Below, one piece after another: positions 7,990 to 54,503 of a stretch of DNA of 64,000 bases. Each line of letters starts with the position of its first letter. Position 1 is the first letter of the stretch. The stretch is from Clytia hemisphaerica (lineage: Eukaryota; Cnidaria; Hydrozoa; Leptothecata; Clytiidae), in assembly GCA_902728285.1 (NCBI GenBank), contig CACVBU010000351.1, positions 1,659,136 through 1,723,135 on the forward strand, in the 5' to 3' direction. The notes under the pieces are model-generated. The model had not been told where the DNA came from. It did not search any database and worked only from the letters and a program-made list of their open reading frames with translations. The position numbers were made by a program, and so were the translations under genes.

Positions 7990-9236
7990 TGTCCTGCCAA
8001 GCGATTTCCATACCACCCGATTTAAACCGGTTTTCGAAAAACCGATCTTTGCACCGGTTCACACCGGTTCAAACCGGTGGCGATCGTTCGTGAAACCGGT
8101 TCAAACCGATCTAAACCGGTTTCCAAAAAATCTGAAATCTCAGTCAATCAGAACCGGTTGCTACCGGTTTGGAAGAGAAGAACACCGGTTTAGCAATAGA
8201 TTTCGGCTGCCGGCAGTTCCAAAATAATATACTGCGATGCGTTTATTTAATAAAAAGTAAAGTTTCTTTTCCACGCTTTTCTCTCTGGCATCATAAAAGA
8301 AGAAACTCCCTTATTTGCTTGCCTTTTTGCTGAAGAAAATCTCTTCGTTAATTGTTGCTGAGTATTTTTCTTTCTCTCTGGTTATTACGTCATAACAAAT
8401 GTTGCGTTCATTGCACATGTTTATTATCTTTAGTAACGAGTAACGAGAAGCACATGCGAAAAAATTCCCTTTTACATTTTACAAGTCTAGACATTTACCT
8501 TCTCTTTTGAATTTCAAAGAGAGAGGAATGTAGTTGTTTAATAAAGCGTTTTGATAAACAACTTTTGCATATTAATTAATATTGTTCAATGTGCACTCAC
8601 TCTCCCCTGTGTCACTATCGATCTTTTTTAAAGAACCCCCCTTCTCACAGTCCCGGTGGGATTTTTTCAGCCAGTGGGGGTAAAAATAACGGACTAAAAC
8701 TCGACGGGGATTAATAATCCCATACTCTTTATTGCTGGGGATTTCAATTGTTTTGTTTTCAAGTCAGAAGAGTCAGTGGGGATGGGTCAAAATTAGTTCT
8801 CGCCGAAATTAAAAAATCTTAGATTTGTCCGTTCGTCAAAATTAGTGCTCACCAAAAAAGGTTCCCTTAAGGTACTATTTTGGGAGGAACTACTTTTGAA
8901 GAAGCTTTTTCATCTTAAATTTAACGATCGTAAAAAATCTTGTTCAAAATTTTATAATCTTCAAGATAGACTATCAGACCACCTCCTAAATTTAGGATTG
9001 GGTGACAGCAACCAACCACCTTCCAAACACCGGCCATTTCTCAGGATTTAAGTCAGTAATTTGAAACAATTTACAGTTTTTGCACTGATTAAATCTTAAA
9101 TTTATTTTGTCGGCTCCGTAACCGGGTTGACACGGGTTCCAAAACCGGTAGAGATCGCTTTTCAAACCGTTTTGCACCGGTTTGTACCGGTTTGTATGTA
9201 AAAATCAACAAGCTCAAGATACTCAATTTTAGAAAC
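7990..9236. mobile_element. ACCGGTTT-rich insert, copy 3
   Basis: This 1247-bp third copy occupies the same position in the monomer. It has an extra ACCGGTTCA unit in the left cluster and several one- or two-base indels relative to copies 1 and 2, mostly in homopolymers or short repeats. The monomer to its right is of a different subtype (CCGATATAGACACTGAC) from that after copies 1 and 2, so a recombination breakpoint lies near its right edge. Short ORFs of 68 and 61 codons inside it are not conserved in the other copies and are not called. Confidence 0.75.
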
Positions 9237-35838: not shown

Positions 35839-36927
35839 TTATCCGAAAAGGGTTTTGATTGAACCACCATCCTTCGATTCTACAGCTTGGAGACGAGGAA
35901 GGAATTGCTTTAAAGCCTTTCTGATTTCTTTCAGGTCGGTCGCACATTCACCCCAAACTTCTTTGATGCGAGCTTCCAACTCCTCTACTGACTGAAATGG
36001 GGTGCAATGCCGACCTTCAAAGACTCTTTCTTGAACTCGATCCCAAAAATAAAAGTCTAAGGGGTTGCAATCAGGCGAACTCGGCGGCCAGTCCGTGTTT
36101 TTCACAAAGCGTGACTTTAACTTCTCTTTAAGGAATTTTTGAATCTTGTTTGCACGATGAGACGGTGCGCTATCTTGAACAAACGTGAAATCGTTGTGTG
36201 GGTACATTGTCTCGGCAGCAGGGATTAACTTGTCTTTCAGATGTTTTAGATAAGATTCGGCATTCACTTTGATTTTGCTACCACCAACAAAAAAAGGCTG
36301 GCTCACTCCTTTCCAAGAAAAAATCGCGGAAACCATCACCTTTACCGATTGCTTGTTTCGCTCACTGAAAAGCCGTTTTGGCTCCACGTCTGTCTTTGGA
36401 CCATTGTGATAGACTCTGTTGTTTTGGCGGTTTGTCTTTACCTGTAAGCTGAAGTCCTTTTCGTCTTGGAAAACCAATCGAGGGATTGAATGCATGGTGA
36501 ATCGCCGAAACAGTTTTGACGCTCGTTCAGTTCTTCTTTTACGGCAACCATCAGTCAATTGAGGTGTTGTCATTCGTTTGTAACACCGTAGTTTCCTTTT
36601 CACAACAAGGCGTTGTACAGAAGATCTACTGATCGAAATCTGAGGAGCAATCTTTCTAGCGGAGCTGTGAGTACCGGGGTTTTCTTCTTGTGAGCAAATT
36701 AGCTCTTCCACCAGATCACCATTTTCCTCGGTGGTAGCAGTCACGGGCCGACCACTTCCCTTCTTTCGGTCAGTTGATCCAGTCTCTTTAATCTTTTTGA
36801 TAAGGTTGTGGATAGCTATCCGTGAGCATTCAAACGATGGATGCTCCTGCCAAATCTTATGAGCATTCCAACCTTTCTCGATGAAATCGTTCTCAATGAC
36901 GGCTTTTTGCTTTTCTGTCAGAACCAT
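35839..36927 (-). CDS. Tc1/mariner-superfamily transposase (intact, 362 aa)
   Basis: This enzyme is predicted to cut the element out at its terminal inverted repeats and join it to TA sites in the nucleus. The 362-residue length is near that of known mariner transposases. Residues about 10-50 form a first helix-turn-helix, followed by the GSGRP (58-62) hook motif and a second helix-turn-helix at about 84-112. The catalytic acids I read are D155 in FQDEK, D252 in VQDSAPSH and D286 in SSPDCNPLD. Between the second and third there are 33 residues, one short of the usual mariner DD34D. Translation starts at the only suitable ATG, and the frame is uninterrupted and unspliced. It fills most of the element, leaving about 340 bp downstream and 380 bp upstream. 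TGACGTCA at 35705-35712 lies beyond its stop codon. The superfamily call is strong; the exact clade is uncertain. Confidence 0.93.
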   Translation of the reverse strand: MVLTEKQKAVIENDFIEKGWNAHKIWQEHPSFECSRIAIHNLIKKIKETGSTDRKKGSGRPVTATTEENGDLVEELICSQEENPGTHSSARKIAPQISISRSSVQRLVVKRKLRCYKRMTTPQLTDGCRKRRTERASKLFRRFTMHSIPRLVFQDEKDFSLQVKTNRQNNRVYHNGPKTDVEPKRLFSERNKQSVKVMVSAIFSWKGVSQPFFVGGSKIKVNAESYLKHLKDKLIPAAETMYPHNDFTFVQDSAPSHRANKIQKFLKEKLKSRFVKNTDWPPSSPDCNPLDFYFWDRVQERVFEGRHCTPFQSVEELEARIKEVWGECATDLKEIRKALKQFLPRLQAVESKDGGSIKTLFG

Positions 36928-37288: not shown

Positions 37289-37306
37289 GAAATCATGTTA
37301 AGTTTT
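37289..37306 (-). repeat. Right terminal inverted repeat, truncated (Tc1/mariner element)
   Basis: GAAATCATGTTAAGTTTT is the exact reverse complement of 35511-35528. The expected outer 15 bp and TA target copy are absent; ATGGCCATTTTAG of inverted satellite follows directly. Confidence 0.85.
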
Positions 37307-38615
37307 ATGGCCATTTTAGTTTAATGATTCCAAATCTTTGTTTGCTTGTTAATATTGAAAAGAAGTACTTCTGGGAAGAATGTTTCAGTTAATTTTCAAT
37401 CATCAAAGTCACTCTTAGCTTGATGAAATGTCAGCGTCCATATCGGTTGCGTCTAACCGATATGGCCATTTTTGTTTAATGTTTCCAAATCTTAGTTTGC
37501 TTGTTAATATTGAAAAGAAGTACTTCTGGGAAGAATGTTTCAGTTAATTTACATTTATGGAAGTCACTCTGAGCTGGATGACATGCCAGTGTCCATATCG
37601 GTTGCGTCCAACCGATATGGCCATTTTAGTTTAATAATTCCAAATCTTTGTTTTCTTGTTAATTTTGAAAAGGAGTACTTCTGGGAAGAATGTTTCAGTT
37701 AATTTAGATTCATGGAAGTTACTCTGATCTGGATGGCATGCCAGTGTCCATATCAGTTGCGTCTAACCGATATGGCCATTTTAGTTAAACGTTTCCAAAT
37801 TTTTATTTGCTTGTTAACATTAAAAGAAAGTACTTCTTGGAAGAATGTTTCAGTTAATTTTCATTTATCAAAGTCATTCTAAGCTTGATGACATGTCAGT
37901 GTCCATATCGGTTGCGTCTAACCGATATGGTCATTTTAGTTTAATGTTTCCAAAGCTTTTTTTCTTGTTAATATTGAAAAGGAGTACTTCTGGCAAAGAA
38001 TGTTTCAGTTAATTTTCATTCATCAAAGTCACTCTTAGCTTGATGACATGTCAGTGTCCATATCGGTTGCGTTTAACCGATATGGCCATTTTAGTTTAAT
38101 GTTTCCAAATCTTTGTTTGCTTGTTAATATTGAAAAGAAGTACTTCTGGGAAGAATGTTTCAGTTAATTTTCAATCATCAAAGTCACTCTTAGCTTGATG
38201 AAATGTCAGCATCCATATCGGTTGCGTCTAACCAATATGGCCATTTTTGTTTAATGTTTCCAAATCTTAGTTTGCTTGTTAATATTGAAAAGAAGTACTT
38301 CTGGGAAGAATGTTTCAGTTCATTTACATTTATGGAAGTCACTCTGAGTTGGATGACATGCCAGTGTCCATATCGGTTGCGTTTAACTGATATGGCCATT
38401 TTAGTTTAATGTTTCCAAATCTTTGTTTTCTTGTTAATATTGAAAAGGAGTACTTCTGGGAAGAATGTTTCAGTTCATTTACATTTATGGAAGTCACTCT
38501 GAGCTGGATGACATGCCAGTGTCCATATCTGTTGCGTTTAACTGATATGGCCATTTTAGTTTAATGTTTCCAAATCTTTGTTTTCTTGTTAATATTGAAA
38601 AGGAGTACTTCTGGG
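37307..38615 (-). repeat. 155-bp satellite, inverted segment
   Basis: About 8.4 monomers read in the reverse orientation (TGGCCATTTTAGTTTAATG...), opposite to every other satellite segment. The left boundary is the clipped right end of the Tc1/mariner element. The right boundary is at CTTCTGGG, followed by the short filler TTTAA and then forward satellite TGGACACTGACATG at 38621. Several dyad arms have changed (CATATCTGTTGCG, TTTAACTGATATGG). The breakpoints at the transposon end suggest a rearrangement that also removed the end of the transposon. Confidence 0.95.
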
Positions 38616-41600: not shown

Positions 41601-42600
41601 GGCCATATCGGTTAGATGCAACCGATATGGATACTGACATGTCATCAAGATTAGAGTGACTTTGATGAATTAAAATTAACTGAAACATTCTTCCCTGCAG
41701 ATCACCTTTTCAATATTAACCAGAAAATAAAGATTTCGAAACATTAAACTAAAATGGCCATATCGGTTAGACGCAACCGATATGGATACTGGCATGTCAT
41801 CAAGCTCATAGTGACTTCCATGAATGTAAATTAACTGAAACATTCTTCCTAGAAGTACTTCTTTTCAATATTAACAAGCAAACAAAGATTTTGAAACATT
41901 AAACTAAAAGGGCCATATCGGTTAGACGCAACTGATATGGACACTGACATGTCATCAAGCTAAGAGTGACTTTGCTGAATGAAAATCAATTGAAACATTC
42001 TTCCAAGAAGTACTCCTTTTCAATATTAACAAGAAAACAAAGATTTGGAAACATTAAACTAAAATGGCCATATCGGTTAGATGCAACCGATATGGACACT
42101 TGCATGCCATCCAGATCAGAGTGACTTCCATGAATGGAAATTAACTGAAACATTCTTCCCAGAAGTACTCCTTTTCAATATTAACAAGAAAACAAAGATT
42201 TGGAAACATTAAACTAAAATGGCCATATCGGTTAGACGCAACCGATATGGACACTGGCATGTCATCCAGCTCAGAATCACTTCCATAAATGTAAATTAAC
42301 TGAAAGATTCTTCCCAAAAGTACTTCGTTTCAATATTAACAAGCAAACTACGATTTGGAAACATTAAACTAAAATGGCCCTTTCCGGTTAGACGCAACCG
42401 ATATGGACACTGGCATGTCATCCAGCTCAGAATCACTTTGATGAATGTAAATTAACTGAAACATTCCTCCAAGAAGTACTTCTTTTCATTATTAACAAGC
42501 AAACAAAGATTTGGAAACATGAAACTAAAATGACCATTTCAGTTAGATGCAACCGATATGGACACTGGCATGTCATCCAGCTCAGAGTGACTTCCATTAA
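38621..42600 (+). repeat. 155-bp satellite array, segment 5 (diverged)
   Basis: Forward-orientation monomers with clearly more substitutions and indels than segment 4. Examples are CCCTGCAGATCACC replacing CCCAGAAGTACTCC in two monomers, and CAATAAAAACAAGC variants near 41.2-41.6 kb. One monomer is cut short at about 39235 (GCAATGTATTCC). The segment ends in CTTCCATTAA, whose TTAA is the target site of the next element. Confidence 0.95.
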
Positions 42601-42614
42601 CCCTATTTTTATCA
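42601..42614 (+). repeat. Left terminal inverted repeat
   Basis: CCCTATTTTTATCA matches the inverted right end at 13 of 14 positions. Inside it follow a run of 11 G and TGTTTTCCACCAG (42620-42638), which matches 49340-49358 inverted over 19 bases. Confidence 0.85.
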
Positions 42615-42839
42615 GGGGGGGGGGGTGTTTTCCACCAGGCTGGCACTCTTTTGCTAATAGCACACTGAAATTTTTTTTTAACATTCTGAAAGTTTTTGAC
42701 TTTTAATATAATCCTATTAGCAGCATGTATACCAAATTTTACAATCATACACCGACCAGATCAGGTTTTATGACTTTTTTGTGCAGGCATATCATAAAAT
42801 CCAGCTAAAACCCTGTAAAATCCCAAAATCTTAAATTTA

Positions 42840-42856
42840 GCATAACTTTTGATCTA
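42840..42856 (+). repeat. Left subterminal inverted block
   Basis: GCATAACTTTTGATCTA is an exact 17-base inverted match to 49319-49335. Weaker inverted similarity (ACTTCAAATTTTGACAGG against ACTTGAAAATTGGCAGAA) continues just inside it. Confidence 0.8.
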
Positions 42857-42929
42857 GGCATCCAACCGACTTCAAATTTTGACAGGTTTTAGGTATCAAT
42901 AATAAATTTTAAAAAATATTCAAAAAATG

Positions 42930-43425
42930 AGCATACCACAGATTTTTGCTTATTCCCCGCTGTTTCCTGCGGGTTCCCTCGATTCCCCTCGGATTTATGT
43001 TTCTCTTGTCAGAGATCTCCCGCCGCCGCCTGCGGGTTTATTAGGTTTTCCTGCGGGTTCCCTCAATTCCCCTCGGATTTATGTTTCTCTTGTCAGAGAT
43101 CTCCCGCCGCCGCCTGCGGGTTTATTAGATTTTCCTGCGGGTTCCCTCGATTCCCCTCGGATTTATGTTTTTCTTGTCAGAGATCTCCCGCCGCCGCCTG
43201 CGGGTTTATTAGGTTTTCCTGCGGGTTCCCTCGATTCCCCTCGGATTTATGTTTTTCTTGTCAGAGATCTCCCGCCGCCGCCTGCGGGTTTATTAGGTTT
43301 TCCTGCGAATTCCCTCGATTCCCCTCGGATTTATGTTTCCCTTGTCAGAGATCTCCCGCCGCCGCCTGCGGGTTTATTAGGTTTTCCTGCGGGTTCTCTC
43401 GTTTCCCCTCGGATTTAAGTTTCTT
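42930..43425 (+). repeat. Left 84-bp tandem array
   Basis: About 5.5 units of exactly 84 bp; the word CCTGCGGGTTCCC or a variant starts at 42966, 43050, 43134, 43218, 43302 and 43386. The unit core is CCCGCCGCCGCCTGCGGG, then TTT, about 10 variable bases and CTGCGGGTTCCCT. The same core, inverted, makes up the right array at 48474-48887. Because 84 is divisible by 3, the plus strand stays open for 163 codons as a 28-residue repeat with a PPPPAG core. I treat this as a by-product of the repeat and not as a gene. A role as clustered transposase-binding sites is inferred. Confidence 0.85.
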
Positions 43426-44347
43426 TATAATTATTGTAGTTATGTAATTATAATGTACTGTATTAATGCTATTGCCGAAATTTCGATATTCGCAAATATG
43501 AAAAGTAAATTAAAGTTTATCCCTTATAGAATATTCATCATTCTAAGAAGCATAACTTTGCCGAAATTTCTAAACCTTGTGCATTGCATCAAAAATAAAA
43601 GGTAAAATAGATATCAATATTTTATTAAAATTATTAGGGATTTGTATATTTTTTGATTTTGAAACAGGTCTGTATTACATAAATTAATATTCAACTTAAC
43701 ATATATATAACTTAACATAACTTAACATAAATTACATATATAACTATAATTACAACGTAAATTTATATCAAAATAAATGAGTCATGAACGATTTAAAACT
43801 TGAAATGAAAGTTCTAAAAACCGCGATTATTAATCGTTGACCCTAACCTAAACCCAAGTAGTTATACTATCAATTTCAAGTCCAACATGTTTTTAGATTT
43901 AACATCACTTAATCAAAGTCAAATTTGGGAATAAAAGATCTTCTCCGTTTGAAGAAACACGGCCGAAAAGTAGAAACTTCTATTTACTACACCAATAAAA
44001 TATAAAGTTTATCATATTAAATTCAGCATTTTATACCTCTTTCGTAGCTCCTCTTTATTTGGACACGAGTTATCATCTGGATTGTGACGTTTAAAACTTT
44101 TTGATGCTGGCGAGACGTGCCCAAAGCCAAGTTTCTCCTAGTCTACACAATAGAAAGCTCCAGGCTTTTAGGCCTTACTCTTGGTCTATAGGCACTGCTA
44201 TATGCGGCCACTAGTAACCCCCACCAGGAATTGCTTATTAATAGGTTTAAACATAATAGAAAACTTTCACAAAAGATGTTTATCAATAGAGATTTCAAAT
44301 AAAAGAGTGTTTAAAACACAGCTGATTGGCTTAGGTTTCGAAACTTT
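43426..44347. other. Noncoding stretch between left array and NTPase gene
   Basis: About 920 bp, AT-rich. It includes a run of short CTTAACATA repeats at about 43695-43745. On the minus strand an AATAAA (44054-44059) lies about 290 bp downstream of the NTPase stop codon and could serve as its polyadenylation signal. No ORF of note occurs here. Confidence 0.5.
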
Positions 44348-45772
44348 CTATTGTTTCATTAAAACCTCAGTGCGCATGCGATTTATCCGAAGAATTTCAA
44401 TATTCAAAACAAGAGCAGTGCTCATATCCCGAAGAGTAGGAGTTTTACGCTCGAAACGAAGGAAGATATGACGTAGCCTAAGTTTCTCCATGCCACCGAT
44501 AAATTTGTTAGCAATTTGCGAGCCAGAGACATTATTAACGATAGGATAAATTTTATCTCTCGATACCACAGAGAGTGGAATGGATTCATTGGATAAAAGT
44601 CTTTTGGCACACTTTTGATAAGTGACTAAATAATCCATGGTCAAATTTTCAGGCTCCGGTAAAGGAGGCTTAAATTTAATGAAGCTATTGTTCTTTTTGG
44701 GTTTTTCAACAGCAGGACCCTTTAGAAGAGAAAAAGCCATTTCAACAGAATAAGAAACAATTTTGTTAGCCATATTGATGTCAGCCTCTGTCACAAAGTC
44801 GGAATTACTGTGATCGTTTTGCAATGCAGTGCGAAGTAACGAAATGACCCCAGAAACGCGTAGTAATAAGCCAAGGGACTTACTTTTGATGGACAACTTC
44901 GCTTCCTCGAATTTCTCCTCCATACGGTAGTCGACAATAGCATCGTGACATGCATCATAAATTAATTCGGCCTCTTCAGTCAATGCTAATTTGATGTTAT
45001 TGTCCACACATCTGTTGTATATTTTGCTCAAAACGCCCTTCATGTCCACCAAATCTTTGCTTTCTTCGAGCTTTTTCTTTTTGTCGGCACGTTTGATATA
45101 TACTTCTTCAGGCACACTTATCAAGAACCGCTGATAAAAACCATCAGAGAGATTGTTTCTGGCAAACTGGACGGCATAATAAGGCTGCGTGAAGGACATA
45201 ATCGATAGACGAGGGTCGAAAAGCTCTAAATTACCACTCGTTTTCGTCTTTTTCGACCAACTGGTTCCGGAGTATAAAGATAGGTACCTTGAACGCTCGC
45301 TGCTGCCTGACGTTCCTTTGTCCAATCCATCGAAAAATGTAGCAAATTCGTCGTGACATGCAAGGGTACTGCCATTATTAATTCGCATAGATTGCATTAA
45401 ACCTTCCAATGTCCCGCTGTCAAAGGTATGAGATTCTCCGGGTTTGTTCTCCACATCTTCCATCAGATCTTTGACGATTTTCATTCCCGACGATTTATTG
45501 GTGCCCGATCTTCCGCACACTAACGCGTATAGTATCGTGGGTTCAGTATGTAAGTCTCCCGCATTTACAGTAGCATGTTGTGAGCAATAAGCAGCGGACA
45601 CCAAAAGTGGCACAGATAGATACGTTTCAGGGACGCCCAATTTCGTAGAATGATGATTTATCCATTCAGCAACTTGATTGGGAAACCAAGTTTTCGTGTC
45701 GTATTTGACTTTCCATGCAATAGTTATAACCTCTTTATAGTCAGCATCATCGATGGGTGGATATTTCGACAT
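44348..45772 (-). CDS. DUF3987-like P-loop NTPase (474 aa)
   Basis: This is a predicted ATPase of the DUF3987 type, a family best known from bacteria and phages and related to primase-helicase ATPases. The N-terminal 80 residues match the family's layout (FPNQVAEWINHH, then VPLLVSAAYCSQHATV). Walker A is GRSGTNKSS (87-95). Walker B is LACHDE (137-142). A polar sensor-like SFTQP follows at about 193-197, and DGFYQRFLISVP (210-221) resembles the family's arginine-containing motif. The last 150 residues are charged and not assignable. The frame is intact. A pyrimidine-rich CAG acceptor ends one base before the ATG, indicating an intron in the 5' untranslated region. The gene is divergent from the KDZ-like gene; in a transposon it may assist DNA processing or replication, but that is inference. 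Confidence 0.78.
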   Translation of the reverse strand: MSKYPPIDDADYKEVITIAWKVKYDTKTWFPNQVAEWINHHSTKLGVPETYLSVPLLVSAAYCSQHATVNAGDLHTEPTILYALVCGRSGTNKSSGMKIVKDLMEDVENKPGESHTFDSGTLEGLMQSMRINNGSTLACHDEFATFFDGLDKGTSGSSERSRYLSLYSGTSWSKKTKTSGNLELFDPRLSIMSFTQPYYAVQFARNNLSDGFYQRFLISVPEEVYIKRADKKKKLEESKDLVDMKGVLSKIYNRCVDNNIKLALTEEAELIYDACHDAIVDYRMEEKFEEAKLSIKSKSLGLLLRVSGVISLLRTALQNDHSNSDFVTEADINMANKIVSYSVEMAFSLLKGPAVEKPKKNNSFIKFKPPLPEPENLTMDYLVTYQKCAKRLLSNESIPLSVVSRDKIYPIVNNVSGSQIANKFIGGMEKLRLRHIFLRFERKTPTLRDMSTALVLNIEILRINRMRTEVLMKQ

Positions 45773-45773
45773 T

Positions 45774-45949
45774 CTGAAAAAAAAAGAGAAATTTTAGGTA
45801 GATAGCTTTACAAGAGCCCACTCGTGATCGAAAAAAAGTGATATCATTCAAAAAATATCTTAATGACGCCAAAAACATATAAAATACGCATAAAGACCTA
45901 AAGTCTTATATTTATTCGATGGATTCTAATTAAATTCAAGCTTACATAC
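45774..45949 (-). other. Predicted 5'UTR intron of the NTPase gene
   Basis: On the minus strand the donor is ATCAG followed by GTATGTAAG (45949-45941). The acceptor is a T-rich tract ending in CAG (45776-45774), one base before the ATG. The 176-bp intron would join a short upstream exon to the coding exon. Both sites match the GT-AG consensus well; use of the intron is not demonstrated. Confidence 0.6.
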
Positions 45950-46045
45950 CTGATAATGAAGTGGCAAGTACTTTGAAATCGCACACAAAGGATGTTCGCA
46001 GATCGAAGTTTTTTACTAGATTGTGGAGATGAAACCACGATATTG

Positions 46046-46131
46046 TATAAAAGTAACGTTCAGAAAGCACTGACGTCACTTTATTTACACCTCAATGACT
46101 TCATTCTCAAAGATGGTTAAAATTGACGTCA
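46046..46131 (+). promoter_or_regulatory. Divergent promoter region with TATA box and two CRE sites
   Basis: TATAAAAG at 46046-46053 is a good TATA box on the plus strand, about 160 bp before the KDZ-like start codon. It is followed by TGACGTCA at 46071-46078 and again at 46124-46131, the palindromic site of CREB/ATF bZIP factors. The inverse of the same TATA region could serve the NTPase gene in the other direction. Confidence 0.55.
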
Positions 46132-46213
46132 GAAAATGGAACGCATCGACACGACTTCATTTTCATTAATTCACAAATAACGACATACACGAATAGAAAA
46201 GAGCAAAATTGAA

Positions 46214-47845
46214 ATGAAGGTCAAGTTCGAGATGTTGCTCCTGTTGTGCGACCTATATAAAGCAATCCCGTCAAGAACACCGAGGCGAATGGAAATCATT
46301 CATCAATACTCAAAGTTGATTTCTGAAGAACCTTTTCTTTGTCCACGGGACATACTAATTGATATTCATGATGAGGAAACACCGTTTCAGAAGACAGAAT
46401 TTGAATTGACAATTCAAATGATATGCAAACTTGAACAAAACATTCCGAAGCTGAATAATTTGACACAAAGACGATTAGAGGTACCGTTATTCTTGTTGCC
46501 CACAGCATATTATTGTTGTGGTACTTTTCTGAAATTGCAACCAAAATTTGCCACTGTCAAATTGTATTCTACTGACGGAGAGCATAAAGCCCATTCGTAT
46601 CATTCAAAGTGTGCGAAATGCTCCAATACCCATTACTATGGATTTACAGAAAATAAGAAACTTTGTCAAAAGACTTTCGATTTCAGCAACTGTGAGGTAT
46701 TGTTGTTCAATTCTGGCATTGCATTCACCAGAAAATTGTTAGAAATGACAGACAATATGATCTGCATCGGCGGAGTGTCATTTGAGAAAGCTGCTGATAT
46801 AATCAGTACAACTGGACATATAATGGACAGGATTAATCCTGATAGGTTGGAAACAGCGTGGTATATTTATCGTATTATTGAATACCAGATAACTTTATAT
46901 TGGCCGAGAAAGAAAGTATCAAAGGAATTAGATGTTGAAGCGCTGTGTGGAATGGTCTATGAAGAAATCAAATCGGAAGTGGATTCAAAGTGACTGAGAC
47001 ATATATGTACAGAGCCTGCCTGCAAAGAAAGATTTATTGTAATCGATGGCAACGAAAAACTGCATCGACTGATATGTGATGCACCCAAAACGCGTGTTTT
47101 AGGTTGCGGTGGAGAGGTGAACTCATATGAGTTGTGCATACAAAATCCCCAGAGAGGTAACCAACACCAAACCAAATCAAAGTTCTGTCATGTACATGAA
47201 AATGAAAAAACCGGTGAAACAATAACGCAACTGGACATGAGACCGTTCACCAGACAATTTGCTAAAAATTTAGACAATGTAGTTGTCGATGAAGATAGCT
47301 GTAAGAAAGAGGAGAATGTCGATCGTTTTCATTCGAGGACAGCAGGAATGTTTTATTTATTCAGACCCTGTGGTATACGTTTATCACACTATGAAATGTA
47401 CACTTCAGAGTCGTTATCTTCAGTATTCTTGTATCTCATTGACACGTTTGGAGAAACAGCTCAAAATTTATCTGGAATTGTGTACGATCGTTCGTGTGGA
47501 TTGCATCCTTTCATACAACGGTTGAGTAACGAGGGGAATCTAATTGCAAAAAAATACGAGGCGCTAGATTTCATCGTGGATATATTTCATGTCGAGAAAC
47601 ATACTCAGCCAAAATTTATGCTTCCACATGTTGATTGTCTTTATCATCCATTTTTAGACAGATTTAGTCGCGTGAGAGGACTTAACACCGAAGTAGCTGA
47701 ACAGTCTAACAGTCAACTTAATCGTTTTAAGTATATGACTCGAAAAATGAGCTACTGCAAAAGGTTGTTATTTTTTAAATTTATTGATGACACTCATAAC
47801 AAAATTTGTTTGGAAAAATCCAAGCATAAATCAATTATTATTTAA
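46214..47845 (+). pseudogene. KDZ-like transposase with cysteine clusters, single in-frame TGA
   Basis: One reading frame of 544 codons including the terminal stop starts at ATG 46214 and is interrupted only by TGA at 46991-46993 (codon 260). I assign it to the KDZ group from its layout. A first cysteine cluster has CAKC (133-136), C151 and C160. A second, just after the TGA, has C265, C270, IDG (277-279) and C288, then C298, C308 and FCHVH (324-328). The RNase-H-like part has YDRSCGLHP (424-432), a D456-x2-H459-x3-H463 cluster (DIFHVEKH) and NTEVAEQSNS (491-500), which supply candidate acidic and zinc-binding residues. The TGA separates the two cysteine clusters, so termination there would leave no catalytic domain. 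It is followed by C, a leaky context; decay, readthrough and sequencing error are all possible. The KDZ call is by motif only. Confidence 0.72.
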
Positions 47846-48473
47846 TTTGATTATAATTATAATTTTTGTGTTAAGCAATTATTGTCCCCGTTCCAAAACG
47901 GAAAGTTTGTAAAATGCAAAGGTGATTATTTAAATCGTTGCAAAATTTCACTGTTTATACAACTTGTTTTTTCTTTATTTTATCATAAGCGTGTGTTTTA
48001 AGAAAATAGGTAGTTTCATTATCATGCACTTTTTGTGTTATCCGTAAAAATCAAAGAGCTTCCATTTTTAAATATAGTTATTTCGACGGGTAGTATATAA
48101 CATTAATCATATTGAATTTCGTAATAATTAGAGGTATTTCAGGTTATAAAGTTCATTATAATTACATATAGAAGTTATATAAATATGAAGATAGTTTACT
48201 AAAAGCCGGTTATTGTTTTGTTAATACGTGATTGTAGATATTATCACAGAATGTTATTTTATTTATATTTTAAGGAATTTCATGAAAAAAATTAAACAAC
48301 TGTTACAGTACTTTAATTTCATTTATATTTTCGAAAGTATTATATTTTTGTTCTGGAAGTTTGATTATGCATTAGAGACTTTGAATAGTCAAAATACAAA
48401 CGCATCAAAGATTTGAGTGTCCAAATAGTTTACTGAAATTCATTAATTTCTGATATTTCGATAATTAAAGATT
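47846..48473. other. AT-rich noncoding stretch after the KDZ-like gene
   Basis: About 630 bp of very AT-rich sequence holding the 3' end of the transposase gene. A 62-codon ORF at 48228-48416 has a low-complexity, phenylalanine- and isoleucine-rich composition and is not called. Confidence 0.5.
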
Positions 48474-48887
48474 TATAAATTACCCGCAGGGAATCCGCAG
48501 TGAAATTTGGAAACCCGCAGGCGGCGGCGAGATTCGAGGTTTCGATAACTAAAGATTTATAAATTACCTGCAGGGAACCCGCAGTGAGATTTGGAAACCC
48601 GCAGGCGGCGGGATTCGAGGTTTCGATAACTAAAGATTTATAAATTACCTGCAGGGAACCCGCAGTGAGATTTGGAAACCCGCAGGCGGCGGGATTCGAG
48701 GTTTCGATAACTAAAGATTTATAAATTATCCGCAGGGAACCCGCAGTGAAATTTGGAAACCCGCAGGCGGCGGCGGGATTTGAGGTTTCGATATAAAGAT
48801 TTATAAATTACCCGCAGGGAACCCGCAGTTAGATTTGGAAACCCGTAGGCGGCGGCGGGATTCAAGGTTTCGATAACTAAAGATTCG
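48474..48887 (-). repeat. Right 84-bp tandem array (inverted relative to left array)
   Basis: About five units of 81-84 bp; GCAGGGAA starts at 48486, 48570, 48651, 48732 and 48814. Shorter units lack one GGC triplet. Read on the minus strand, each unit carries CCCGCCGCC(GCC)TGCGGGTTT, about 10 bases, and CTGCGGGTTCCCT, in the same register as the left array. The other half of the unit (TTTATAAATCTTTAGTTATCG on the minus strand) differs from the left array. Confidence 0.85.
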
Positions 48888-49318
48888 AAAAGTTGCTATA
48901 TCATATTTTAAGTCAATCCGCAGGGCTCTGCGGGAAATATTGGACTATCTGTGCCTAAGTGCAAAAAAATTTAAAAAACTGCTGACGTCATCAAAAATGA
49001 CGTCATTGTTTTTTGATAAAATTTACTCATTTTCTGCATGGATTTTAAAAGTCAATTTTATTAGTATGTTAAAAACCGGCAAGTATGTGAAAGATATTTA
49101 TTTTGGCTTTTAGAAATTCAAAACATAATTGAAAAATCTCCATTAGTTCAACTTTAATTGCTATTTTATTGAATAGTACTTTTTCATTGGTCAGCGATAA
49201 TTGTGAAAATTTGTGATGACGTCATCACCTTTATGATTACGTGATCAACCCAAATTTTTTTCTATGAACTCCTTTTATTAGAGAACATTTCTGCCAATTT
49301 TCAAGTTCATATCTTTTC
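48888..49318. promoter_or_regulatory. Right subterminal region with three CRE palindromes
   Basis: This noncoding stretch between the right array and the end of the element contains TGACGTCA at 48983-48990, 48998-49005 and 49217-49224. The third is flanked to give GATGACGTCATC. Their function is unknown; bZIP binding is the known role of this palindrome in eukaryotes. Confidence 0.5.
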
Positions 49319-49335
49319 TAGATCAAAAGTTATGC
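49319..49335 (-). repeat. Right subterminal inverted block
   Basis: TAGATCAAAAGTTATGC is the exact inverse of 42840-42856. On the right it lies directly next to the CTGGTGGAAAACACCCCCC block (49340-49358), whereas on the left about 200 bp separate the two. Confidence 0.8.
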
Positions 49336-49383
49336 AAGGCTGGTGGAAAACACCCCCCTTGAGAATACAAAATCCGAAAAGGG

Positions 49384-49397
49384 TGATAATAATAGGG
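49384..49397 (-). repeat. Right terminal inverted repeat
   Basis: TGATAATAATAGGG is the inverse of the left end with one mismatch and is followed immediately by the TTAA target copy (49398-49401). Confidence 0.85.
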
Positions 49398-49401
49398 TTA
49401 A

Positions 49402-50147
49402 TGCAAATTAACTAAAACATCCTTCAAGAAGTATTCCTTTTCAATAAAAACAAGCAAACAAAGATTTGGAAACATTAAACGAAAACGGCCATATCGGTAA
49501 GACGTAACCGATATAGACACTGACATGTCATCAAGCTTAGAGTGACTTTGATGAATGAAAATTAACCGAAACATTCTTCCCTGCAGATCACCTTTTCAAT
49601 ATTAACAAGAAAACAAAGATTTCGAAACATTAAACTAAAATGGCCATATCGGTTAGACGCAACCGATATAGATACTGACATGTCATCCAGCTCAGAGTGA
49701 CTTCCATGAATGTAAATTAACTGAAACATTCTTCCCAGAAGTACTCCTTTTCAATATTAACAAGAAAACAAAGATTTGGAAACATTAAACTAAAATGACC
49801 ATATCGGTTAGACGCAACCGATATGGACACTGACATGTCATCAAGCTTAGAGTGACTTCCATAAATGTAAATTAACTGAAACATTCTTCCTAGAAGTACT
49901 TCTTTTCAATATTAACAAGCAAACAAAGATTTGGAAACATTAAACTAAAATGACCATATCGGTTAGACGCAACCGATATGGACACTGGCATGTCATCCAG
50001 CTCAGAGTGACTTCCATAAATGTAAATTAACTGAAACATTCTTCCCAGAAGTACTTCTTTTCAATATTAACAAGCAAACTAAGATTTGGAAACATTAAAA
50101 TAAAATGGCCATATTGGTTAGATGCAACCGATATGGACACTGACATG
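49402..50147 (+). repeat. 155-bp satellite array, segment 6 (diverged)
   Basis: About five forward monomers lie between the two large transposons. The first resumes the monomer cut by the TTAA element. One monomer carries the CCCTGCAGATCACC variant also seen at 39.5 and 41.7 kb. The segment ends within a monomer at GACACTGACATG. Confidence 0.95.
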
Positions 50148-50297
50148 AAAATTGCCCCGGAGAAAATTGCCCCCGGAAAACTGCCCCCCAGGAAAATTTC
50201 CCCCCAGAAAACGGCCCCCCAGGAAAACTGCCCCCCAGAAAATTGCCCCTCAGAAAATTGCCCCCTAGGAAAATTGCCCCCCAGAAAATTGCCCCCT
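50148..50297 (-). repeat. Left terminal array of 15-16-bp repeats
   Basis: About nine to ten copies of GCCCCCCAGAAAATT and variants with one extra G or with CT/AG changes. The minus strand reads GGGGGGCAATTTTCTG. The last unit runs into GCCCCCTATTTTTCCA, which is mirrored at the inner edge of the right array (TGGATTTTAGGGGGC). Confidence 0.88.
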
Positions 50298-50995
50298 ATT
50301 TTTCCATTTTTCGAAAATAAATTTAACTCAATTTTCAACATTTGGGAGATTTTGGATTACGCAATTTTACGTGATCGCGTCTTAACGGATTAAGAGATCT
50401 AGAATATTTTGGGGCTATATTTTGGTCCAACGGTTGCAGGTTGCAGCCGTAATTTTCATTAAGTTGACGCTTTTTATAAGGAATAATGTGGTTTAACCAT
50501 GGAATACAGAGAAAGCGTTTTCTCTGTTTAGCGATAGTCAATTTCAATGTGTTTTATACTGTATTTCTTTCGCTATTCAAGTATTTTATTTATGGTTTTA
50601 CAAAATTTCTTGGTCATATGGAATGGATAACTTCATTCTTACTATATTCCTCACGCTGACCATTGATCTGCTTTGCATGTTTTAGTTTTTTTTATTAGGA
50701 ACCAGTTAAGAACATTCAGACAGAAATTTGGCAAAAATTTAAGAGTATCGTAATAACTAACCTGGGAATCCATGCTATGATTTCTTCTTTGATAAACTGA
50801 TGGCGAAATGTATAGCATGGTATGGGCTGAGAGTTTGAATTTCTCAGATCCTAATAACGGTTGAAAACATAGCCAATCAAATTTTGTTATTCTTTTACTG
50901 GTCACACCTTCTTAGAGAAAGCGCAACTTTCGAAATTTGGTTTTTATTTTAGTAAGTGAGGACAGCGCTAAATTCGAATTTCCCACTGTAAAAAA

Positions 50996-51019
50996 TGTGA
51001 GTCCAATATTGGACTCACA
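50996..51019. repeat. Perfect 24-bp palindrome
   Basis: TGTGAGTCCAAT is followed directly by its exact reverse complement, ATTGGACTCACA, with no spacer. It could be a dimeric protein-binding site or a trace of a small inverted-repeat element. Confidence 0.8.
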
Positions 51020-51143
51020 GCTCGAACCCGTCTTGTGTACATCAAATTATAAAAAAACACACGACGGTTCTCCTGTCTACGTAATAACATACTCGGCCTG
51101 AGAATCGAATAGTTTGACGAAATTTGCTTGAAATCTTACACTC

Positions 51144-51266
51144 TCTTCTCACAGACCCGGTAGGATTTTTTTAGCCAGTGGGGATAAAAATAACGGACTG
51201 AAAGTCGATATTCCTTTATTTTTTATGGCTGGGGAAAAATCAGAAAATTCAGTGAGGATGGGAAAA
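51144..51266 (+). repeat. Segment shared with the ACCGGTTT-rich inserts
   Basis: CTTCTCACAGACCCGGTAGG, AGCCAGTGGGGATAAAAA, TAACGGACTGAAA and CAGTGAGGATGGG occur in the same order and spacing as the matching phrases at about 3557-3707 in insert copy 1, with scattered differences. The two elements therefore share an ancestral module in the same orientation. Confidence 0.75.
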
Positions 51267-51675
51267 ATAGCATAATATTATTCAGTGAGGTTTGGTTTAT
51301 TTACTACATTTATTTGCTACAAAGAGAAAAAATGTGACCCCGTATCATTGAAAGGTTTTATTTGTTTAATTTTGGCGCCTCTGATAAATTTTGCTACGCA
51401 CGCGCTAAAAAGGAAGACATCATCAAAGATCAATTATAATATTTACACACATGTCTATTTTTCAAATGAATATTTGCATAGTAGCGGTGTAGCGAGTTAG
51501 CAGTTCAGCATTTTGAAGCTCCTCCTTTTTCACTTTTCGTTAAACATTGGAAAGGAGTTGACGTCATCAAGTTCTTTTTATTCTTGATCACGTGAGTCTG
51601 CTGACCAATAAGAAACCAAAGGGAGACAAAACTTCTATAAAAAGAAGAAATTTCGCAAAACTCTTAGCATTCAAA

Positions 51676-53082
51676 ATGGAGCTGACAAGAACAGAGAGAG
51701 GCAGAGAGAAAATTCTTGAAAATGGATATATTTATGTATTTCAGAAAGATTTAGCTAATGACCTCAAGTCCTTCGAGTGTGAACTTCGACGCCGTGGACA
51801 ATGTAAGGCTAAAGTTAAAGTGGACATTCTGGGAGATATTGTTGAAAGACTCAATGAACATACCCATCAACCGTCTGCAACTAAAGTTGAAGTAACTAAA
51901 ATAAAAGTATCGCTTAAAGAACAGGCTGCAACTTCACACGATTCAACCCAAAACATCGTGGGAAATGAGATAGCAGCTGCCTCGGCGAGCGCTATTGTAA
52001 ATTTACCACCGGTCAATCACTTGAAAAGAACAATGAGAAACCAACGTGGAAATGATTTACCACCGAACCCAATCAATAGAGCCGGTATTCCAAACCTTCC
52101 TCAAGAATTTCAGCGTACGATGAATGATGAAAGATTTCTCTTGTTTCACTCTGGTGTTGGTGACGATCGTCGAATTATTCTTTTTTGTACTGACAGAGCC
52201 CTTGAATTACTACAAAGATCAAGACATTGGTACGCGGACGGGACTTTTAGAGTATGTCCTGAGATTTTTTTCCAGGTTTATACAATTGATGTCCGTGTAA
52301 ATGAAAGGACAATTCCTTGTGTATTTTCACTTTTACCAAACAAAACCGAAGACACCTATGGAAGGATGATCGATGTGCTGTTGAATTTTTTACCAAACGG
52401 AACGGCTCCGGACACAATTTTGTTTGACTTTGAAAGAGCAGCGATTAATGTGGCATTGAGATCATTCCCAAACGTAGTGGTAAATGGTTGTTTTTTCCAT
52501 TTAACATCCAACGTATGGAAGAAAATTCAAAGCCTTGGGATGCAGCAAAGATACATAGATCATCCCGACTTCGCATTACACGTAAGAATGATTCCAGCAT
52601 TAGCCTTTATCCCTGAAGATGACGTCATCGATGTATTTGAGGAATTGGTTGATCAACTTAGAGAGTTATACGGAGCTGATTTGGATGCTCTTATCGATTA
52701 CTTTGAAGATACATACATCGGGCGTTTTCAAAGAAATCGACCACGTCGAAGACCGCTGTTTGCAATTGAACTTTGGAACATGTAAGAAAGAACTGAAAAT
52801 GAGATGCCTAGAACCAGCAATTGTATCGAAGGTTGGCACCACAAATTCCAGAATCTATGTAACTGCCACCACCCTACTTTCTGGAAATTTTTGAATTCAT
52901 TAAAACTGGAGGAATCCCTTGTGCGCGTGAATGCGATTCAAGGTGACGGAGGACATCCACCACCCCCACGTAGAAGAAGATATATAAATAATGACGCGAG
53001 AATTTTAACAATTGTTGCTGATTACGGAAACAGGGACAATCTTCATTATTTAAGAGGCATTGCTCATAATATTGCAGTTTAG
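51676..53082 (+). pseudogene. FLYWCH zinc finger-MULE transposase, single in-frame TAA
   Basis: The frame runs 468 codons from ATG 51676, with a stop at codon 370 (TAA, 52783-52785) and open sequence on to 53082. An earlier GTG at 51592 also opens the frame, but the ATG sits just before the FLYWCH finger. That finger spans residues about 8-66, with C35, C43, H62 and H64 as ligands, and should bind element ends or other DNA. The MULE transposase domain follows: WYADGTF with D188, FDFERA with D251, and GCFFH (C272/H275). The likely third catalytic acid is E385 in NCIEGWHH, which lies after the TAA, so a protein ended there would be inactive. The rest reads as normal family sequence (HPTFWKFL), so this looks like one recent nonsense change. 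There is no sign of introns. Confidence 0.88.
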
Positions 53083-54332
53083 ACATTATTAACATCTTAG
53101 CATTTCTTTTGTTTTTGTTTTTTTGTCAAAGCTTTTTTTTCTTTAATTATGTTGTATATACTGTATTAGCTCTTGAATATTCTTTCAATGCAAAACAAAC
53201 AAACTTCTAAAACATTTTCAAGTAGGATGTGAAAAAATCATAACATAACAGGCTGATAGAAACTTTTACCTTGGTTCTATGATACCATTTAGTCTATTCT
53301 ATCGAGTTTATCAGTATAATTTAACATATTTTGATTTAGATCTGTAACATTTTACTCGGAGAAAGTTAAAATGTAAATAAATTTCTTTTGTTTAAAGCTT
53401 GCTGGTGATTTCTATGACGTTTTAAAGAAAAACTTGTTGAAAAAAAATCATTTTAAATTATTCATTGAAAATGGACAATACTTGAATTTTTCTTTCTCCC
53501 AATAATCTTGAAATAAAATATCCTTTCTTTAATCAATCAACAAACATTGGAGCTCGATCGGCTCGATTTGATTCAAAGTTTTCGAAACGTTAAAGTTTTT
53601 GGATGTTTTCAATGACTAAAAAGGGACTAAAAAACATTTCTTTGTGAAACTTTTTGGAGATTTGAAATTTCCCATGTAAAAAACGGATTTTGTAGACCGC
53701 ACACGGTAAAAGAAAAACATTGAATCATCAAATGAATTAAGATTCTAAATTCTTAATTCTTAAAGAAAAAAGACGCCTCAAAAACGACTTTTACAAGTTT
53801 TGTATGAGGTGGAGAAAGATAGTCGAGTAATAAAATCACTTTCAAAAAAATCTTTCCCCATTTCTTAACCCTAAGCGCCCTATCCGTGCTAGCTTAAGCT
53901 AAGGGAACTAACTTTTACTAACTCGCCAAAATAAGTTCCTACCAAAATTAAAATTTCAGTTTTCTTGGCTAAATAACCCCTGAAATTCAACAAAGTTGCT
54001 CAAAATAAGATGAAATAGAACAGATTTAAGCTGTCATTCGCTAAAATTAATTCCAACCACAGTTAAAAAATTAATTACAGTCTTCCCCAAAAAAAGTTCC
54101 CACCAAAATAATCTATTTTTCGAAAATTTTCTACCCAGGACATTGTTGATCCAACCCCTCCTCCGCTTATCAATTTTTCGGAATCTGAAACTTCTTTTTT
54201 GTACGGATTATGCTGTTTTAGCCTTTTTTCCAATCCACCCCCGCTGACCCCCGTTTACTAGGTACCCTAAGAGTAATTCAAAACAACTTAATTTTACAGC
54301 TACAATGGCCATTTGAAGTTTCATTGGATTTT
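53083..54332. other. Noncoding 3' region of the MULE
   Basis: About 1.25 kb of AT-rich sequence after the transposase stop, with no ORF or RNA gene that I recognise. No internal repeat stands out before the right terminal array. Confidence 0.5.
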
Positions 54333-54503
54333 AGGGGGCAATTTTCCGGGGGGCAATTTTCCTAGGGGCCAATTTCTGGGGGGCAATTTTCTGGGGGGCA
54401 ATTTTCTGGGGGGCAATTTTCCTTGGGGGCAATTTTCCGGGGGGGGGGGCGTTTTCCGGGGGGCAGTTTTCCGGGGGGCAGTTTTCTCGGGGGCAATTTT
54501 CCT
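54333..54503 (+). repeat. Right terminal array of 15-16-bp repeats
   Basis: About eleven copies of GGGGGGCAATTTTCTG and close variants, in opposite orientation to the left array. One unit has a run of 11 G. The copies differ individually from those on the left, so the two arrays have changed size independently. Confidence 0.88.

Follow-up and report, generated by a model that had tools for sequence, protein, structure and literature searches.

Eukaryotic cut-and-paste elements are, for the most part, believed to make do with a single transposase, and bacterial systems such as Tn7 (TnsC), Mu (MuB) and IS21 (IstB) join a transposase to an ATPase. The locus considered here lies in a 64,000-nucleotide stretch of the hydrozoan Clytia hemisphaerica (contig CACVBU010000351.1, positions 1,659,136 to 1,723,135, forward strand; hereafter the window), where an element bearing a KDZ (Kyakuja-Dileera-Zisupton) transposase gene and a divergent DUF3987 nucleoside triphosphatase (NTPase) gene is nested in a TTAA-flanked repeat. 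The closest described elements are Zisupton and Dileera, which, as far as the accessible parts of two reports describe them, share with it the KDZ domain, a CxC-type cysteine cluster and 8-bp target duplications (PMC12730594, PMC12810828). The same parts give 8-bp duplications for Zisupton and Dileera and 7-bp duplications for Kyakuja, whose ends are CA..TG without inverted repeats (PMC12730594), and report 8 bp for a fresh insertion of Cryptococcus KDZ1 and 4-8 bp for KDZ2/3 (PMC12810828). DUF3987 has been described, in the available portion of one source, as a predicted helicase of mobile-element replication, as it replaces known helicases in primase fusions (PMC5862659). What appears to be new in Clytia is the DUF3987 NTPase as the second gene of KDZ transposons, KDZ elements themselves being known. 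No description of the pairing was found in the literature searched, and one may exist in the founding KDZ papers or in Repbase; DUF3987 papers, covered by title and the start of the abstract, included none on a eukaryotic transposon and none pairing KDZ with DUF3987.

The window is mostly a 155-bp satellite array, interrupted at 42597-49401 by TTAA-flanked DNA. Copies were sought in the window's own genome (417 Mb, 951 contigs) and carry L numbers, L001 being the window itself. The features of the interruption are as follows:

42597..42600, unstranded: TTAA, left-hand target duplication of the outer element (read from the sequence; satellite register regained on joining)
42601..42928, plus strand: left part of the outer ~760-bp element, with the CCCTATTTTTATCA end (adjoins the right part in sister copies L002-L008)
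42921-42928: left copy of the inner element's target duplication, CAAAAAAT, the last 8 bases of the outer left part
42929..48961, plus strand: inner KDZ-DUF3987 element, 6033 bp, ends GAGCATACCACAGAT...ATCTGTGCCTAAGTG (same ends in L009, L012 and L019; 8-bp duplications)
42963..43424, plus strand: left subterminal array, 84 bp x 5.5 (tandem-repeat scan)
44015..45772, minus strand: DUF3987 NTPase gene (profile match), with a small repeat inserted close to its 3' end; 3' end approximate, by L029 alignment
44139..44480, unstranded: third small repeat, 342 bp, MULE-like, in the 3' end of DUF3987 (absent from L012, L019 and L029)
46214..46990, plus strand: N-terminal part of the transposase, with a CxC5-like cysteine cluster (Pfam match)
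46991..46993, plus strand: in-frame TGA breaking the window's transposase gene (copies open across the site exist)
46994..47845, plus strand: KDZ catalytic part (KDZ match; putative D-D-E motifs)
48456..48885, minus strand: right subterminal array, ~81 bp x 5.2 (TCCCGCCGCCGCCTGCGGGTTT also occurs, inverted, in the left array)
48962..49397, plus strand: right part of the outer element, with the TGATAATAATAGGG end, beginning with the second duplication copy CAAAAAAA (48962-48969; sister-copy alignment)
49398..49401, unstranded: TTAA, right copy of the outer target duplication (read from the sequence)

A history of nested insertion involving a two-gene KDZ transposon very probably accounts for this arrangement as a whole. 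First, an element of ~760 bp, without genes and with ends of piggyBac type, would have entered the satellite array at TTAA; next, the KDZ transposon (~5.7 kb minus the later insert) would have entered this outer repeat with an 8-bp duplication; and last, a small MULE-like repeat would have struck the DUF3987 gene. Nesting of this sort can mimic a new kind of transposon, in which outer ends and inner genes are of separate origin.

The KDZ transposase gene and the DUF3987 NTPase gene do belong to a single element, and their association is genuine: six families, 32-56% identical (32-54% for DUF3987 alone), contain a CxC5-KDZ gene and a DUF3987 gene in divergent orientation. Among 20 fetched KDZ-centred loci, 14 contain a DUF3987 match of some length, that of L027 being 58 residues long and that of L018 coming seemingly from a neighbouring element, and none was seen in L009, L014, L023, L024, L026 or L028. 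Searches with the window's own proteins as queries listed 68 KDZ clusters and 39 DUF3987 clusters, the latter after 28 matches lying wholly in a foreign tail of the query (396-474) had been dropped. At least 31 of the 68 KDZ clusters have DUF3987 within 6 kb, a lower bound since the best 90 of 780 DUF3987 candidates were scored; 27 of the 31 pairs are divergent and four otherwise arranged. Clusters of at least 700 bp are paired in 22 of 32 cases (by subtraction).

Profile searches separate the window's KDZ lineage from other KDZ genes. With all 74 candidates scored, the Pfam DUF3987 profile matched 41 times; the matches form 30 clusters, and 22 of these lie within 6 kb of this lineage. The Pfam KDZ profile gave 110 matches (150 of 171 candidates scored) in 98 clusters, 20 of them belonging to the lineage; 100 KDZ matches entered the pairing comparison. 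DUF3987 lies within 6 kb of 15 of the 20 lineage clusters and of none of the 78 others, where the nearest is 14.5 kb away, and is therefore a lineage-specific partner, not a general KDZ neighbour. The 78 other clusters include some short exon-like matches and some single frames of ~490-590 residues.

The gene pair has ends of its own, GAGTATACCACAGAT...CTGTGCCTAAGTG, inside the outer repeat. Its left end reads GAGTATACCACAGATTTTCG (in the window GAGCATACC..., one base different) and its right end, read inward, CACTTAGGCACAGATAGTCC; alignment of the window with L009, L012 and L019 breaks off sharply near 42929 and 48961. Duplications of 8 bp with at most one mismatch flank 10 of 21 KDZ loci (the 20 fetched plus the window) in five families, and exact ones flank seven of the 21 in four families. 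In the window's family the duplication is exact in L009 (GTTTTCTC) and L019 (TCCTGACT), and seven of eight bases agree in L012 (ACCCAAAT/ATCCAAAT). Other families supply exact copies at L016 (CATGGAAA), L020 (TGGTTTTG), L021 (AAGTTTTC), L022 (AAGATTCC) and L027 (TGGGAAGG), and one at L013 with seven of eight bases alike (AAATTTAA/AAATTCAA). Element boundaries were drawn by alignment in the window's family and in L016/L020, and were partly chosen via the duplication in L013, L021, L022 and L027; the separate duplication scan that found L027 missed the pairs of L021 and L022, which come from an earlier family comparison. The imperfect inverted ends of KDZ loci, ~20 bp long, agree at 9-15 of 20 bases. 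An 8-bp pair with one mismatch at L024 was set aside: its ends are unlike (5/20) and lie beside the transposase. The copy at L027:4751-9049 (4.3 kb) has its transposase opposite to the G-end/C-end order of the other families.

Tandem arrays near the ends are a further feature of the inner element. The window's left and right arrays have a common 22-bp motif in inverse orientation; the first-pass annotation had given both a unit of 84 bp, which fits the left array, the right unit being ~81 bp. Across families the units measure 69-95 bp and their sequences are family-specific: CCCGCCGCCGCCTGCGGG in the window's family, TTCCGCCGCCGCCTGCGGAA in L013/L017, CTGAGACGTCTCAG in L020 and CTTCGGCGTAGCGGCGAAG in L021/L022. 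Arrays occur at both ends in at least one copy of the window's family, L013/L017, L016, L022, L024/L025 and L027, and at the right only in L014/L015; no near-end array was seen in L026. Copy number varies within the window's family (left/right 5.5/5.2 in the window, 9.5/3.7 in L009 and 3.3/2.4 in L012). We read these as putative transposase-binding arrays.

The two divergent genes reported by the first-pass annotation are borne out by Pfam profiles, with DUF3987 on the minus and CxC5-KDZ on the plus strand. The DUF3987 open reading frame (ORF) matches at 44348-45772 (minus strand; Pfam E 1.7e-30), also matches the PHROG 2373 'DNA helicase' profile (3.6e-15), and is homologous to L029 over 469 codons. 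Its last ~37 residues are foreign and derive from the inserted 342-bp repeat, which is why 28 of 102 places in the DUF3987-query match list, where the coding piece of that repeat recurs, cover the ORF tail alone. The repeat is flanked by a 9-bp duplication, AGTTTCTCC, at 44130-44138 and 44481-44489, and has imperfect inverted ends, TAGTCTACACAATA / TAGGCTACGTCATA; we call it MULE-like by this 9-bp duplication. The Walker A motif GRSGTNKS is present in 10 of 13 DUF3987 pieces, L011, L016 and L018 differing in the first four residues and keeping the lysine and serine, and the Walker B motif DEF in 10 of the 10 counted. For these counts, rows more than half gapped at the motif were dropped, which at Walker B includes L012 and L030.

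The transposase, read earlier as one frame at 46214-47845, is in fact split in the window by the TGA. The Pfam comparison proposed for its product places KDZ (PF18758) above the cut-off (E 9.4e-8; 32.4 vs 26.6 bits) and CxC5 just below it (E 1.1e-5; 26.0 vs 26.9 bits). KDZ was matched by 11 and CxC5 by seven of 21 scanned family pieces, the best CxC5 match reaching 5e-13. The DGNEK aspartate is found in 13 of 15 pieces, YDR(A/S)C in 12 of 12 and NTE(V/I)AEQ in nine of 11, and these motifs are presumably the D-D-E catalytic triad; L010, L013, L014, L022, L023, L024 and L025 each depart from them somewhere. Open frames survive as a 541-residue CxC5-KDZ protein in L010 and L011 and a 469-residue DUF3987 protein in L029. 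Profile searches of the Protein Data Bank (PDB) with both protein alignments returned nothing meaningful (best E 0.58, a ribosomal protein), and no relative of the transposase was found in viral contigs.

In diverged copies, the two genes are under similar purifying selection. The ratio of nonsynonymous to synonymous substitution (dN/dS) is 0.106 for KDZ between L010 and L025, and 0.109 and 0.079 for two DUF3987 pieces between L011 and L025.

Several observations weigh against a two-gene element that moves as a unit with 8-bp duplications. Ten of the 32 long KDZ-query clusters and five of the 20 Pfam KDZ clusters of the lineage are without DUF3987 within 6 kb. Distances between the six families for KDZ and for DUF3987 correlate weakly and not significantly (r 0.47; 69 of 720 permutations reach this r). 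No 8-bp duplication was found at 11 of the 21 KDZ loci (L010, L011, L014, L015, L017, L018, L023, L024, L025, L026 and L028), and the window's own pair, CAAAAAAT/CAAAAAAA, is A-rich and has one mismatch (7/8). Several recent within-family dN/dS values lie near or above 1 (e.g., 1.02, 1.75 and 3.43), a scatter to be expected where copies decay or few changes are counted. Lastly, L009 has lost its DUF3987 gene in an internal deletion, yet is flanked by an exact 8-bp duplication. Because L009 moved or survives without DUF3987, transposition does not depend on the NTPase in cis, unless the gene was deleted after insertion, and the NTPase could act in trans.

As for mechanism, the KDZ transposon most likely moves by cut and paste. 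We infer that the CxC5-KDZ protein, a predicted DDE enzyme of RNase H fold, would bind the imperfect ~20-bp ends, that its cysteine cluster would contact the inverted subterminal arrays, and that it would make cuts in the target DNA staggered by 8 bp. Encoded by the divergent gene, the DUF3987 P-loop NTPase would be a dedicated partner on DNA during transposition, serving an ATP-dependent step, most likely by remodelling the ends or the post-excision DNA in the manner of a helicase. That the NTPase is an active partner in transposition is a proposal that the evidence slightly favours. The wider claim, of a eukaryotic KDZ lineage with two components, a CxC5-KDZ DDE transposase and a helicase-like DUF3987 NTPase, acting at paired subterminal arrays, is evenly poised. 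If true, such a lineage would be a eukaryotic parallel to the bacterial transposase-plus-ATPase systems. It resembles Tn7, Mu and IS21 in having a DDE transposase and a dedicated NTPase, the partnership here being a candidate one, and DUF3987 is, presumably, a different ATPase family from TnsC, MuB and IstB, judging by name. Retention of a phage-type NTPase across families down to 32% identity suggests an ATP-dependent step, of which no study was found in the literature searched, and the lineage supplies both candidate genes and probable binding arrays.

The most durable alternative makes DUF3987 a passenger or regulator, with the KDZ protein alone transposing and the NTPase serving silencing evasion, copy-number control or replication timing. 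The duplication around L009 and the 78 other KDZ clusters without DUF3987 fit this account, as does the extra TET/JBP dioxygenase gene of some fungal KDZ elements, mentioned in the accessible part of one report (PMC12730594). A passenger sits less well with a lineage-specific and mostly divergent pairing held over families as distant as these, and with purifying selection acting alike on both genes. This alternative is possible but rather doubtful, and an active NTPase is preferred.

Far less survives of a single TTAA-inserting element, in which a KDZ enzyme would work at TTAA with CCCTA ends, as the first-pass annotation had supposed. Its observations were accurate: exact TTAA stands on both sides, the CCCTA-type ends CCCTATTTTTATCA...TGATAATAATAGGG match as inverted repeats at 13 of 14 terminal bases, both genes lie within, and an empty site can be restored, the flanks joined over one TTAA giving a satellite spacing of 154-156 bp around the join, with one instance of an uninterrupted satellite unit bearing CCATTAATGT. 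The two genes do constitute one element, as had been proposed; the TTAA ends do not belong to it. A search with the outer element's first 200 bp drew 708 candidates, 40 of 40 scored matching at 95-100%, and in the seven sister loci fetched (L002-L008) the window's pieces 42597-42928 and 48964-49401 are adjacent, overlapping by only 4-8 bp. No KDZ or DUF3987 match was present in any of the seven. Both TTAA-flanked ends are present in six, 517-1145 bp apart, with spans of 758, 759, 760 and 763 bp, one shortened to 517 and one of 1145 bp that contains other DNA, the other five being free of extra DNA; at L003 a recognizable right end was not found. The longest ATG-initiated ORF in the six two-ended copies encodes 57 residues. 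The genes, for their part, are bounded by different ends and by 8-bp duplications in L009, L019 and L012 as well as in further families, and own ends with a target duplication inside the outer repeat are what the first-pass annotation had itself named as telling against its reading. TTAA paired with inverted 14-mers was sought in 10 kb at each of the 20 other KDZ loci, and none of the four best pairs per locus had CCCTA ends. These results refute the single element, and a KDZ enzyme acting at TTAA is most improbable. Within those four best pairs, perfect TTAA-paired 14-mers occurred only at L013, in repeats outside the element's own ends (L013:1482-1553 and 8695-8766, with KDZ on the plus strand), which perhaps mark another element hosting the L013 copy. 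A chance neighbourhood, with DUF3987 a host or viral gene beside a KDZ landing site, is already excluded for the window's family and can scarcely be credited elsewhere: eight of the 30 DUF3987 clusters do lie more than 6 kb from a lineage KDZ match, but the two of these eight that were fetched (L029, L030) keep an adjoining CxC5 remnant, fewer than 0.1 adjacent pairs were reckoned at random against 31 seen, and several families have both genes enclosed by the element's own ends and arrays.

By its ends and duplication, the outer repeat is classed as a gene-less element of piggyBac type. It has the TTAA duplication and CCC...GGG ends of non-autonomous piggyBac elements, and differs in that, among 12 loci fetched from 82 genome matches to PF13843, none joined a parent transposase to these ends. 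Three of those 12 (L033, L035 and L037) are resident piggyBac elements with TTAA and CCCTTT ends. Kolobok, defined in the accessible part of one source by a TTAA duplication with 5'-RR..YY-3' ends (PMC9587614), was ruled out by the 5'-CC..GG-3' ends.

The inner element, judged by its gene content and target duplications, behaves as a KDZ element. A piggyBac assignment fits neither its transposase nor its own duplication, and Kyakuja is ruled out because the duplications measure 8 bp and the ends, GAG..GTG, form imperfect inverted repeats. Unlike known KDZ elements it has a DUF3987 NTPase as second gene and subterminal arrays, and its short imperfect ends contrast with the 139-241-bp inverted repeats given for Cryptococcus KDZ1-3 in the part of the report available (PMC12810828). 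The window's DUF3987 resembles the ATPases of phages, satellites and plasmids in profile match and Walker motifs. Unlike them it lies in a transposon, in a genome with satellite arrays and intron-like gaps, with no primase domain matched in Pfam and no pairwise match in phages, plasmids, or viral or prokaryote contigs.

Other elements were noticed in the same genome. At C335:626576-638257, six tandem KDZ fragments are spaced ~2.31 kb apart, and it seems that a piece of this KDZ transposon has there turned into part of a satellite-like array. Within the window, a 362-residue Tc1/IS630-like transposase (DDE_3, HTH_32) is encoded at 35839-36927 on the minus strand, in a ~1.8-kb gap in the satellite, which is inverted just past it (37306-38615). 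A MULE/FLYWCH element at 50147-54502 contains an ORF at 51592-52785 (PF10551, PF04500) and has at each end an array of a 15-bp GAAAATTGCCCCCCA-like unit, the two arrays being inverse to each other.

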